A stretch of 64,000 nucleotides of DNA from Verrucomicrobiia bacterium (lineage in GTDB: Bacteria > Verrucomicrobiota > Verrucomicrobiia > Verrucomicrobiales > Akkermansiaceae), in the NCBI GenBank assembly GCA_030432565.1, contig JAUIGV010000030.1:1-64000 (forward strand), in the 5' to 3' direction. The notes below the pieces were generated by a model. The model had not been told where the DNA came from. It saw only the letters and a list, made by a program, of their open reading frames with translations, and made no database searches. Positions 33,306 through 47,064 of the stretch are shown here, piece by piece; the first letter of the stretch is position 1, and the number at the start of each line of letters is the position of its first letter. The position numbers were made by a program, and so were the translations under genes.

Positions 33306-33467
33306 GGATGTGACTACGCTCTCAAATTCCAAACTCTCACACACGGGGATGATTTGAGTCGATTTCGCTGAATTCACCCCATAAACAACAAATTTCTCGA
33401 AATCCTTATTGATAACTTAGCCAAAGCCACCGAAAATTCCGCGCCGAACCGAATTGCCACCCGATTA

Positions 33468-34868
33468 ATGACAATGTCCAAACTCCCGCTTCCCGCCTTA
33501 AAACACCTTCCTGAACTTGATCCCGGGTTTATTCCGGCTTCCCTTTGGAATCAGGCGTTTCGGGACAAATGCTCCAGCGAAGGAAGTCGCGAGATCAGGA
33601 TCGCGGTGCTTCGACCCGACGGAACGGGGATGGTTCATACCGAGAGTATTCTGACGAACGATGATGACGAGTCAATGGAGCTCAATTTCAGGCTCGTCGA
33701 GCGCGTTGTGAAATTTCTCCTCTGGAGCTGTGGCGGAACAAAGGTCGTTCTCGAAAACTCCCCCTCCCTCGCCCGTGCTCTGGCGGAACACTATCGCGAA
33801 GGAGGCAAACGTGAATTTGATGTCGATTACTCACGTCGCTTTTTCGGCGAAACTTTGACGATTTCATCTGAGTCGAGCGAAACCTTTCCAACTCCCAGAG
33901 AGACCGAGGATGCCGATAGCAAAATCGGACTGAAAGGAAATCGCATTGGCTTTGACCTTGGTGGATCCGACCGGAAATGCGCTGCGGTGATTGACGGGAA
34001 AGTCGTCTTTTCCGAGGAAGTCACCTGGGACCCTTACTTTCAAAGCGATCCCAATTATCACCGCGAAGGGATCATTGATAGCATTCGCCTTGCCGCCGCC
34101 CACCTTCCAAAAGTCGACGCCATCGGAGGTTCTGCGGCGGGAGTCTACGTCGACAGCAAGGTCCGCGCAGCCTCCCTTTTCCGGGGGGTGCCCGATGAAC
34201 TCTTTGAGAAACATGTGGAAAACATTTTCTTCGAAGTGGCCAAGGAATGGGACGTCCCAATCCGGGTTGTCAACGATGGGGACGTGACAGCCCTTGCTGG
34301 TGCCATGTCGCTGAATGACGGGTGTGTCCTTGGTCTGGCCATGGGAACAAGCGCGGCCGCCGGATACGCTGATGCGAATTCCCGGATCACCCCCTGGATT
34401 TCCGAACTCGCCTTCGTTCCCATCGATTTTAACGAGGACGCACCCCGGGATGAATGGTCCGGCGACATCGGTTGCGCCGTCAACTACTTCAGCCAACAAG
34501 CGGTTTCCCGGCTGATCGAGCCTGCCGGACTCGACATCGACCCTTCCCTTGGGAAACCTGAGAAGTTGGTTTTGGTCCAAGAGGCAATGGAAGCGGGCGA
34601 TGAAAGTGCGGCAGCAATCTACCGCACCATTGGCACCTACCTTGGCTATGCTATACCCCAATTCGCGAGGTTTTACGACATTAGGCACATGCTTTTGCTG
34701 GGACGGGTCCTGACCGGCAAGGGTGGCGAAATCATCATTTCAAAAGCCGAAGAAGTTCTCCGGGACGAGTTTCCCGATCTGGCAAAAACCATCTCCCTCA
34801 GTACGCCGGACGAGAAGATGAAGCGTCACGGCCAAGCCATTGCTGCGGCAAGCCTGCCTGCGATCTAA
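33468..34868 (+). CDS. ROK-family protein with a long N-terminal extension
   Basis: The ROK/sugar-kinase core starts only at residue about 160 (RIGFDLGGSDRKCAAV, the ATP phosphate-1 motif). It is followed by GGSAAGVYVDSKV, VRVVNDGDVTALAGA (phosphate-2 and the catalytic Asp) and LGLAMGTSAAAGYAD (adenosine motif). The usual ROK zinc motif (CxCGxxGC) is missing: DIGCAVNYFSQQA stands in its place. Residues 1-155 are unlike a ROK helix-turn-helix domain and I cannot name them. 466 residues against about 300 for simple ROK kinases. Function is probably a sugar kinase or sugar-sensing protein. Confidence 0.65.
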   Translation: MTMSKLPLPALKHLPELDPGFIPASLWNQAFRDKCSSEGSREIRIAVLRPDGTGMVHTESILTNDDDESMELNFRLVERVVKFLLWSCGGTKVVLENSPSLARALAEHYREGGKREFDVDYSRRFFGETLTISSESSETFPTPRETEDADSKIGLKGNRIGFDLGGSDRKCAAVIDGKVVFSEEVTWDPYFQSDPNYHREGIIDSIRLAAAHLPKVDAIGGSAAGVYVDSKVRAASLFRGVPDELFEKHVENIFFEVAKEWDVPIRVVNDGDVTALAGAMSLNDGCVLGLAMGTSAAAGYADANSRITPWISELAFVPIDFNEDAPRDEWSGDIGCAVNYFSQQAVSRLIEPAGLDIDPSLGKPEKLVLVQEAMEAGDESAAAIYRTIGTYLGYAIPQFARFYDIRHMLLLGRVLTGKGGEIIISKAEEVLRDEFPDLAKTISLSTPDEKMKRHGQAIAAASLPAI

Positions 34869-43520: not shown

Positions 43521-43637
43521 CGGTGCGGAGATTGCCCGCTTCGCCTCATTCTGTCCATCTCCGACAAATTTCTTCTCTGATTGTCCAATTACTCTTGTGA
43601 CCTGACACCTCTCTGACTAGCGTTCTGAAACCGATCG

Positions 43638-43643
43638 AGGAGG
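43638..43643 (+). promoter_or_regulatory. Ribosome binding site that sets an AUU start for kdsB
   Basis: AGGAGG lies 6 bp upstream of ATT 43650. The in-frame stop TGA at 43626-43628 bounds the frame. No ATG, GTG or TTG occurs between the stop and the first conserved KdsB motif. Confidence 0.7.
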
Positions 43644-43649
43644 AATATT

Positions 43650-44399
43650 ATTAGCAACGAAAAAATACGAATCGTTGGCATCATACCGGCCCGCTGGGCC
43701 TCCTCCCGCTTCCCCGGAAAGCCCCTTCATCCGCTGCTTGGGAAGCCACTCCTTCAACACGTCTTCGAACGTGCTTCCCTTTGTAGAGAACTGGACGAAC
43801 TCGTCATCGCAACCGATGACAGTCGCATTTCCGCTCTTTGCGAAACGATAGGAGCCAAAGTCATTAACACCCGCTCCGACCATCCCACAGGCACAGACCG
43901 CATCGCCGAGGCCGCCGACCGGTGCGACGCTGCCACCCACGTGATTAATATACAAGGCGACGAACCCCTGCTCGACCCGGAACTGGTTGATACGCTTGCA
44001 CGCGAATTACGCGAGGACGAAGACCTGCCAATGATCACTGCCGGCAGCCCTCTTGACGACCCCGACCTGATTGCCAACTCCAATATAGTCAAACTGGTGA
44101 TCGATCGTAACCACAACGCGCTCTACTTCTCGCGTTCTCCCATTCCCTTTCGAAGAAACGAAGTTCCGACCCTCCCCACTTATCGACATTTGGGAATTTA
44201 CGGTTACCGCACCGACTTCCTGCAACGCTTCATCAAACTCCCTCCCTCACCCCTCGAGATCGCTGAAGGACTGGAACAACTTCGCGCCCTCGAAGATGGT
44301 GCCACCATTCGGGTTCACCTCACCGAACACGAAGCCATCGGCCTCGACTCTCCTGATCAAATCCCGCTCATCGAATCCCTGCTCGCCTCATCTCAATGA
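43650..44399 (+). CDS. kdsB: 3-deoxy-manno-octulosonate cytidylyltransferase with a putative AUU start
   Basis: Activates Kdo as CMP-Kdo for lipopolysaccharide synthesis. The complete protein is visible only if translation starts at ATT 43650. It reads IIPARWASSRFPGKPL, the nucleotide-binding signature, from residue 11, then ELVIATDDSRI, SDHPTGTDRIAEAA, INIQGDEPLL and RHLGIYGYRTDFLQRF. 249 residues equals the E. coli enzyme (248). The first GTG (43941) would remove the whole catalytic N-terminus. AGGAGG stands 6 bp upstream. The stop overlaps the pyrG ATG by 4 bp; PyrG makes the CTP this enzyme uses. Confidence 0.85.
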   Translation: MSNEKIRIVGIIPARWASSRFPGKPLHPLLGKPLLQHVFERASLCRELDELVIATDDSRISALCETIGAKVINTRSDHPTGTDRIAEAADRCDAATHVINIQGDEPLLDPELVDTLARELREDEDLPMITAGSPLDDPDLIANSNIVKLVIDRNHNALYFSRSPIPFRRNEVPTLPTYRHLGIYGYRTDFLQRFIKLPPSPLEIAEGLEQLRALEDGATIRVHLTEHEAIGLDSPDQIPLIESLLASSQ

Positions 44400-46000
44400 A
44401 ATACATCTTTGTCACCGGAGGAGTTGTCTCCTCACTTGGAAAAGGACTTGCCGCAGCCTCCATCGGGACCCTGCTCGAACACCGGGGACTGCAAGTCATC
44501 CTCCAAAAGTTCGATCCCTATCTCAATGTCGACCCGGGGACGATGTCTCCCTATCAACACGGCGAAGTTTACGTGCTTGATGATGGCGCGGAAACCGATC
44601 TCGACCTGGGCCACTACGAACGGTTCACCCACGGGAACCTTTCCCAGGTCAATAGTCTGAGCTCCGGCCAGGTCTTTGAGAACGTGATTAAAAACGAACG
44701 GGCCGGAAAGTATCTTGGAGCTACGGTTCAATTCATCCCGCACGTGACCGACGAGATCAAAGATCGACTCAAAATGGCAACCGAGCGCAACCGCGACGCC
44801 GATGTCATCATCACCGAAATCGGAGGAACTGTTGGTGATATCGAAGGGCACCTTTTCCTCGAAGCCCTCCGCCAGTTCGCACTCGAGGTTGGTGATGAGA
44901 ACGTTTGCTTCATTCACGTCACTCTTCTTCCAATGGTCAAAGCCGCCGGCGAAATTAAAACCAAACCGACCCAACAATCGGTGGCAAAGCTCCGCGAAAT
45001 CGGAATCCAGCCGGACATCATCATTTGCCGGACCGAGCACCATCTTGATGACGACAACAAGCGCAAGATCGCGATGTTCTGCAACGTCAAGAAGAAGAAC
45101 GTAGTCGCTTTCCGTGATGTCGAGAACACCATTTACGAATGCCCGCTCGACCTCCGAAAAGACAAGATCGATCGCCTTGTCTCCGACACCCTCGGACTCA
45201 AATCGAAGTCTCCCGATCTTTCGAAATGGCAGGGTTTTGTCGACCGCCTGGTCAACCCGTCGAAGATCACTTCGATCGCAGTGGTCGGAAAGTATATTGA
45301 GCTCAACGACGCTTACAAATCCATTTACGAATCCCTCACAATCGCCGGAGCCGAACACGACACTGCGGTTAATGTTGTTAAGATTGACGCTGAAGACATC
45401 GAAAAAGAAGGCGCCCAAGCCATCATTGGGAACGTCAATGGTATCCTCGTTCCCGGTGGCTTCGGAGAACGTGGCACTGAAGGAAAAATCCTGGCTGCCC
45501 AATATGCTCGCGAAAACAAGATCCCCTATCTTGGAATTTGCCTCGGGATGCAAATCGCCACCATCGAGTTTGCCCGCAATGTTTGCGGCTTGGCCAAGGC
45601 AAACTCAACCGAGTTCAACAAAGAAACGGAACACCCCGTGATCAGCCTTCAAGAGGAACAACAAGGGATCGTCGATATGGGCGCCTCGATGCGACTTGGA
45701 TCATGCGCTTCAACGGTCTATCCGGGAACCAAATCCTTCGAACTTTACGATCAGGCCGACACCATTCACGAGCGGCATCGCCACCGCTGGGAATTCAATC
45801 CGGCTTACCGGGAAACACTTGAGGGATGTGGCCTCACCATCGCCTCGGTTTCGAAAGATGAAGGCCTTGTCGAAATCATCGAAATCGCGGACCACCCTTT
45901 CTTTATCGGGGCTCAGTTCCATCCCGAGTTCAAATCGAAACCAAATCAACCCCACCCGCTTTTCTCGGGACTGATCGCCGCTTCCCTTGAGAACTCATGA
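44396..46000 (+). CDS. pyrG: CTP synthase
   Basis: Converts UTP to CTP with glutamine. The synthetase domain opens with YIFVTGGVVSSLGKGLAAAS (P loop). The glutamine amidotransferase domain has IPYLGICLGMQIATIEFA with the nucleophile cysteine, and the C-terminal HPEF motif (GAQFHPEFKSKP) carries the catalytic His and Glu. 534 residues, normal. It is coupled by 4-bp overlaps to kdsB before it and nagZ after it. The link to kdsB is metabolic as well, since CMP-Kdo formation consumes CTP. Confidence 0.96.
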   Translation: MKYIFVTGGVVSSLGKGLAAASIGTLLEHRGLQVILQKFDPYLNVDPGTMSPYQHGEVYVLDDGAETDLDLGHYERFTHGNLSQVNSLSSGQVFENVIKNERAGKYLGATVQFIPHVTDEIKDRLKMATERNRDADVIITEIGGTVGDIEGHLFLEALRQFALEVGDENVCFIHVTLLPMVKAAGEIKTKPTQQSVAKLREIGIQPDIIICRTEHHLDDDNKRKIAMFCNVKKKNVVAFRDVENTIYECPLDLRKDKIDRLVSDTLGLKSKSPDLSKWQGFVDRLVNPSKITSIAVVGKYIELNDAYKSIYESLTIAGAEHDTAVNVVKIDAEDIEKEGAQAIIGNVNGILVPGGFGERGTEGKILAAQYARENKIPYLGICLGMQIATIEFARNVCGLAKANSTEFNKETEHPVISLQEEQQGIVDMGASMRLGSCASTVYPGTKSFELYDQADTIHERHRHRWEFNPAYRETLEGCGLTIASVSKDEGLVEIIEIADHPFFIGAQFHPEFKSKPNQPHPLFSGLIAASLENS

Positions 46001-47064
46001 ACGCAGCGCGCTTGATTGTTGGTCTCTCCGGACCTTTGCTCACCCCGGAAGAAGCATCCATCTTCCGCGAAATCCAACCGGCGGGCTACATTCTCTTCTC
46101 GCGAAATTTGATCTCGGCAGAACAAATCAGGGAACTCACAGACTCGCTCAATTCACTTTCGCTCGACCGGCCGTTCATTTCGATCGACCAGGAAGGCGGC
46201 CGCGTGTGGCGCACCCGTGACTTTAGTTGTGCACCTCCGGATGCTGCGACGTTCACCTCAAAAGCAACACCCCGGCAGATCGCTCGGTTTGGAGCGCTGA
46301 CCGGCCAGCTTCTGGAGATCCTCGGCATCAACCTCAACTTTGCTCCCGTCCTCGATCTGGATCACCATCCCGACCAAAACAACGGTCTTCGCGGAAGATG
46401 CTGGGGAACCGACTCCCAGACTGTCATCAACAATGCCGGCGTATTTAATCGATGGATGCGAAAGCAATTCATTCTTTCCTGCGGCAAACACTTCCCCACC
46501 AATGGTCTCGCCTTGAGCGACCCCCATCATGATCTTCCCGTCGCAAAGGTGAGCAGAGAAGAGTTATTGAAGGAAGATCTTCTCCCCTATACTGCCCTCA
46601 TGCCGGAGCTTGACGCCATTATGGCATGCCATCTGCGCTTTCCCGAACTGGACCCTGAAATGCCGGCATCGCTAAGCCGCAAAATCCTCACCGGGCTCCT
46701 CCGCGATCAACTTGGCTACAATGGACTCATCCTCACCGATGACCTCGACATGGGAGCGATCGTAAATCACCACGGACGGGGTAACGACATCAAGCTGGCG
46801 CTCGAAGCCGGCGCTGACATCGCCCTGATTTGCCACGACATGTCCAACCTTCCTGAAGTCTTAAAAGATCTTCAAGTTAAGAACGACCACGACTCGCTCA
46901 TCCGCATCGAGAAGCAGCGCAACAAGCTCAAGCGTCCGCCGGTTTTCACCGCATCCAGATGGCAGGAATTGAACGATCAAATGAAAGAGCTTACCTGCGA
47001 AGTCATCGGGGAGGAACGCTTCGAGCTAGCTCGCCCCGCCCAGAGCCCGGTCGAAGAATACTAG
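45997..47064 (+). CDS. nagZ: Glycoside hydrolase family 3, NagZ-like beta-N-acetylhexosaminidase
   Basis: Probable peptidoglycan-recycling hexosaminidase. The frame has the GH3 start (VGLSGPLLTPEEA), DRPFISIDQEGGRVWR, NLNFAPVLDLDHHPDQ and the nucleophile Asp in LILTDDLDMGAIV. The catalytic loop reads KHFPTNGLALSDPHHDLP: the Lys-His and the Asp-x-His dyad are kept, but the usual GHG that follows KHFP is replaced by TNG. No signal peptide, so it is cytoplasmic as in NagZ. 355 residues. Its ATG overlaps the pyrG stop by 4 bp. Confidence 0.82.
   Translation: MNAARLIVGLSGPLLTPEEASIFREIQPAGYILFSRNLISAEQIRELTDSLNSLSLDRPFISIDQEGGRVWRTRDFSCAPPDAATFTSKATPRQIARFGALTGQLLEILGINLNFAPVLDLDHHPDQNNGLRGRCWGTDSQTVINNAGVFNRWMRKQFILSCGKHFPTNGLALSDPHHDLPVAKVSREELLKEDLLPYTALMPELDAIMACHLRFPELDPEMPASLSRKILTGLLRDQLGYNGLILTDDLDMGAIVNHHGRGNDIKLALEAGADIALICHDMSNLPEVLKDLQVKNDHDSLIRIEKQRNKLKRPPVFTASRWQELNDQMKELTCEVIGEERFELARPAQSPVEEY

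Follow-up and report, generated by a model that had tools for sequence, protein, structure and literature searches.

Described genes with conserved non-canonical starts

The pcnB gene of Escherichia coli reportedly begins with AUU, a codon that is said to limit its expression, and infC, whose product is IF3, has an AUH start (AUU, AUC or AUA) that is kept across species. In Streptomyces, sigR has a GTC start (GTC in 32 of 34 cases, GTT in the other two) that is accompanied by AGGAGGTG, its expression is repressed by IF3 and coupled to that of rsrA, and replacement of GTC with a canonical start leads to overproduction of SigR, according to PMC5472188. In Staphylococcus aureus, cvfC1 (AUU) and ccpN (AUA) combine such starts with extended Shine-Dalgarno (SD) sequences, and PMC13009471 gives their expression in poor medium as about 10% of that obtained with AUG. 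The kdsB gene analyzed here, which serves outer-membrane lipopolysaccharide, comes from a stretch of 64,000 nt that we refer to as the window, in a bacterium whose genus is related to Akkermansia. It is a probable further example of this kind, with a putative, conserved non-canonical start behind a strong SD; the other members considered are infC, pcnB, sigR, and cvfC1/ccpN.

Each of these systems resembles kdsB in some respects and differs in others. With infC, kdsB shares an AUH start maintained across species and an expected sensitivity to IF3, but kdsB has the full AGGAGG, whereas none was visible before infC in the loci of the genus that were inspected. Because kdsB encodes KdsB and not IF3, there would be no autoregulation of the kind found for infC. 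The AUU codon is common to kdsB and pcnB, while species, gene, and operon context differ. The sigR gene is similar in its non-canonical start behind an extended AGGAGG-type ribosome-binding site, in its conservation within one genus, and in leading a coupled pair; it is dissimilar in that the codon is GTC rather than AUH, in that SigR is a sigma factor and KdsB a metabolic enzyme, and in that repression by IF3 was demonstrated for sigR and is proposed by analogy for kdsB. Likewise, cvfC1 and ccpN have conserved AUH starts with an extended SD, and cvfC1 is the first gene of its operon; these genes, however, come from Firmicutes, where SDs are widely used, and their initiation was mapped, whereas kdsB belongs to an SD-scarce lineage and its start is deduced from sequence. 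Among the titles and abstracts listed by literature searches of open-licence papers, there was no case of kdsB with an AUH start, and one paper inspected for kdsB together with pyrG gave only protein lists. Translational coupling of kdsB and pyrG has reportedly been noted in Chlamydia; our search of open-licence papers found no source for it.

The kdsB start region and its orthologues

The gene had originally been predicted to be a full-length kdsB of 249 residues, and this was borne out by its product, which scored above cut-off with four NCBIfam models of the kdsB type: TIGR00466 (209 bits against a cut-off of 155.2), NF003952 (291.1 against 193), NF003950, and NF009905. A fifth model, NF003948, matched below its own cut-off, Pfam CTP_transf_3 also matched, and solved KdsB chains (PDB sequences) aligned with the product from its residue 7–11 onward. 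A single copy of kdsB was found in the 5.93 Mb genome. On the other side, the region is bounded by a divergent sodium/solute symporter-like gene, whose NCBIfam match is slightly under the cut-off. The features of the locus are collected in Table 1.

Table 1 Features of the kdsB locus in the 64,000-nt window.
Feature	Position	Strand	Basis
Putative -35 element, TTGTGA	43595..43600	+	CTTG shared by all 20 AUH genomes; 17 nt to putative -10
Putative -10 element, TAGCGT	43618..43623	+	TA and final T invariant in the 20-genome alignment
In-frame stop TGA 5' of kdsB	43626..43628	+	Direct reading
Shine-Dalgarno AGGAGG, 6 nt 5' of start	43638..43643	+	AGGAGG in 20/20 AUH genomes; spacing 6 (17 genomes), 5 (2), 7 (1)
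Putative start codon ATT (AUU)	43650..43652	+	Sole well-placed near-cognate codon; AT in 20/20, third base T9 C6 A5 G0
kdsB, 3-deoxy-manno-octulosonate cytidylyltransferase (CMP-Kdo synthetase), 249 aa	43650..44399	+	NCBIfam, Pfam, and PDB sequence matches
pyrG, CTP synthase; ATG overlaps kdsB stop by 4 nt (ATGA)	44396..46000	+	Family match; overlap in 22/22 genus genomes
nagZ-type beta-N-acetylhexosaminidase; overlaps pyrG stop by 4 nt	45997..47064	+	Family match; overlap

Read directly, the codons that follow the in-frame TGA are AAC CGA TCG AGG AGG AAT ATT ATT AGC AAC GAA AAA ATA CGA ATC GTT GGC ATC ATA CCG. As the original prediction had stated, no ATG, GTG, or TTG occurs in the window between this TGA and the GIIPAR motif of kdsB, and the AGGAGG is rightly placed for ATT 43650; the first in-frame codon of the canonical kind is GTG 43941, 97 codons past that ATT. 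The alternative raised earlier, ATT 43647, stands only 3 nt from the AGGAGG.

The genus was sampled with 27 genomes, of which 24 matched kdsB (all but G015, G018, and G023) and 22 showed its 5' end (G007 and G013 were cut by contig ends). The codon behind the SD was ATT in nine, ATC in six, and ATA in five of these 22 genomes, with AGGAGG at 5–7 nt in all 20; the other two, G014 and G025, have a TTG start without AGGAGG, and none has ATG. The orthologues strongly support the predicted AUU start, and from the alignment an AUH start with AGGAGG looks like a kept feature of the genus. A sequencing or assembly error at 43640–43655, whose probability we put close to nil, was ruled out, since 19 other genomes of the genus repeat the combination of AUH and AGGAGG.

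The pattern of AUH codons, taken alone, would equally suit an internal, conserved isoleucine codon, which would yield the identical variation among ATT, ATC, and ATA; the true start would then lie elsewhere, at an upstream non-standard codon, by out-of-frame entry, or at a downstream canonical codon, and a few genomes do have open frames farther upstream of kdsB. We regard this as very improbable on account of the upstream stops and of the SD spacing. For 18 of the 20 AUH genomes, the in-frame stop lies 12–28 codons 5' of GIIPAR (the distance is 66 codons in G011 and 325 in G022), and in several genomes nothing except the SD and its spacer separates the stop from the AUH codon. A canonical start is absent from the nearest in-frame stop to the motif in 18 of the 20, the exceptions being G020, with a TTG directly 5' of its SD, and G022, where a long chance open frame has canonical codons no nearer than 57 codons upstream; downstream, the canonical codons lie 20–118 codons inside the KdsB domain. 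Across the 20 genomes the AGGAGG and the AT of the start are invariant and the spacer and codons 2–4 are variable, and the interval between SD and AUH is held at 5–7 nt even though the distance from AUH to the motif is nine codons in 17 genomes and eight in three. This pattern agrees with selection of the start by SD and initiator tRNA. The conserved distance is to the SD and not to the protein, which, with the upstream stops, argues against an internal isoleucine.

An unusual initiator tRNA was also considered as the cause of the AUH start. The initiator-like tRNA-Met at G000:C10:11930-12006 has AGG/CCT in place of GGG/CCC beside the anticodon loop, and a search of 117 family genomes found the exact 20-mer of this variant anticodon stem in 92, including all 14 genus members sampled; the variant is therefore not specific to the genus with AUH at kdsB, and the explanation was rejected. 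Two of the 27 genus genomes matched the GGG/CCC form, at places where no tRNA was called.

Start codons and SD sequences in the genome, genus, and family

SD sequences are rare in the window's genome. When 1.85 Mb (31%) of it was surveyed using a crude assignment of starts, AGGAGG preceded the assigned start in 19 of 1232 genes, 1096 of the 1232 genes were without an SD of at least five bases there, and ATG was the assigned start in 733. This rarity agrees with the entry for Akkermansia muciniphila in PMC10783764 (SD-scarce, CCUCC conserved). Among the 1239 genes called in the same 31% of the genome, an SD (5-mer or better) and an AUH codon before the first canonical codon were recorded 14 times, three of them in the kdsB frame, and kdsB is the sole clear case; further cases may exist in the rest of the genome. 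One of the 14, C29:3276 (minus strand), has a positive coding score and an ambiguous frame, and the remaining ones were set aside, their coding scores being negative or near zero or their starts being explained by an ATG, GTG, or TTG. Elsewhere in the window, an open frame at 33372–34868 (plus strand) shows some coding signal ahead of its first ATG (33468), and ATA 33381, which has no SD, is a possible start.

Outside the genus, 59 kdsB loci were inspected among 100 family genomes with a match, and 52 of them had a readable motif (seven did not). The nearest canonical codon at these 52 loci is GTG in 35, ATG in 10, and TTG in seven, in every case within 12 codons. Start codon and SD are associated: AUH occurs with AGGAGG in 20/20 genomes, and a canonical codon occurs without SD in 2/2 of the others in the genus and in 51 of the 52 loci outside it, as judged by the absence of an SD of at least four bases. 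AUH is present in both of the lineages that separate at the deepest split in the genus, and over the 22 genomes the start has undergone at least seven codon changes, with six third-base changes among the 20. AUH and SD probably arose as one ancestral event, which leaves few independent changes behind their association. In G014 and G025, TTG is probably one allele of single origin, as suggested by the 95.4% identity of their kdsB 5' segments over 175 columns; between G025 and G017 the identity in that segment is 52.3%, yet it reaches 97.1% in pyrG. This conflict between the shared 5' segment and the pyrG relationships suggests exchange of the leader between species.

The AUH codon could also be a tolerated accident, in which the strong SD freed the third base and ATG drifted to ATH long ago, its weakness never having been selected. 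The lack of G at the third base gives no ground for rejecting a neutral model: on a tree of the AUH genomes with 11.4 substitutions per fourfold site, the fourfold model at the fitted rate gave P = 0.23 with T at the root, 0.08 with A, and 0.28 with C, equal rates gave P = 0.07, and the values ranged from 0.016 to 0.85 over all scales tried. The third base itself changes at a fitted rate of about 0.5–1 times that of fourfold sites, and selection against AUG was not significant from this base alone (neutral P about 0.07–0.28 at the fitted rate). A start freely driven by its SD should, however, allow ATG somewhere, whereas ATG was seen in 0/22 genomes of the genus and TTG in two, and the kdsB start is mostly weak in the 52 loci outside the genus too, against the predominance of ATG in the crude genome-wide survey. 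On balance we consider an accident unlikely.

Proposed expression of the kdsB-pyrG-nagZ genes and possible role of IF3

The original prediction placed kdsB at the head of a coupled kdsB-pyrG-nagZ operon, and this order is supported by the 4-nt overlaps, which were followed through the genus for kdsB/pyrG and seen in the window for pyrG/nagZ. No SD was found 5' of pyrG in any of the 22 genus genomes. CTP, which KdsB consumes, is made by PyrG. Upstream of kdsB, the leader would be roughly 20 nt long if the putative -10 element is used; a stricter scan for consensus promoters and terminators gave none at kdsB, and Rfam gave no match for the region at E up to 5. RNA folding predicts that the SD is mostly paired with downstream codons (single-sequence z of -1.32), and this pairing may lower access to it. 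A dedicated SD-sequestering hairpin was rejected, as synonymous recoding of the downstream codons pairs the SD much alike: when each genome was folded against 100 recodings, 17 of the 20 AUH genomes fell below the mean and three were at or below the fifth of 100.

The reading that best joins these observations, and one that we hold to be probable, is that kdsB starts at AUU 43650, with a weak codon that is offset by a full SD and limits kdsB, in an operon that is probably IF3-sensitive. The ordinary initiator tRNA would read the weak codon, since the AGGAGG would hold the 30S subunit at optimal spacing, the subunit being positioned by the SD helix and two correct codon-anticodon pairs. Initiation would be kept low by the AUH codon, and a strong SD with a weak codon would approximate the level of the SD-less GTG or TTG start in relatives; by analogy with the described genes, the AUH start should limit KdsB. 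Ribosomes ending kdsB would probably reinitiate at the ATGA of pyrG and then at nagZ, and the limit on kdsB would likely be passed on to CTP synthesis. With its invariable overlap and no SD, pyrG should follow kdsB by reinitiation, although it could be started independently, since most genes in this genome are without an SD.

Because IF3 rejects AUH starts, the kdsB operon would probably be sensitive to the level of IF3, as infC is. The earlier suggestion that the AUU of kdsB may serve regulation as in infC is a plausible analogy that fits the comparative data. In the genus, the likely infC start is AUA at 20 and AUC at five of 25 loci; 22 of these have no canonical codon from the stop to the motif, and the other three have just a TTG, 23–30 codons up. 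Since an in-frame ATG lies 13–14 codons further inside at all loci inspected, the AUH start of infC is likely rather than certain. More tentatively, and with some doubt on our part, kdsB-pyrG-nagZ might be a second IF3-controlled operon in the genus, in which case the AUH starts of kdsB and infC would let IF3, the initiation-fidelity factor, control Kdo activation, CTP supply, and cell-wall recycling; if true, envelope and CTP production would track the ratio of IF3 to ribosomes. The kdsB case lets one ask whether IF3 governs metabolic genes besides infC, and its natural series, comprising AUU, AUC, or AUA with an SD and TTG or GTG without one, bears on the trade-off between start codon and SD in an SD-scarce lineage. 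Gene callers that accept only ATG, GTG, and TTG cannot see AUH starts, and they can therefore shorten or overlook a lipopolysaccharide gene such as kdsB throughout a genus.

A separate observation in the genus concerns an MsrA-like protein (Pfam PMSR) at L200:3679-4455, which corresponds to G000:C34:174679-175455, and also at L274-L279. Where its catalytic cysteine would be expected, it has an in-frame TGA (GLG-TGA-FW), which likely encodes selenocysteine. No convincing tRNA-Sec was found in the 31% of the genome that was scanned; the tRNA-SeC call made by ARAGORN at G000:C34:90631-90722 (minus strand) contains a CRISPR-repeat-like stretch, which we take to be a type I-C-like CRISPR repeat ending ATTGAAAC, and is therefore probably false. 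SelB is above its cut-off in 24 of the 27 genus genomes, and 21 of the 27 have one TGA inside the MsrA-like match, its position having been checked in six loci.
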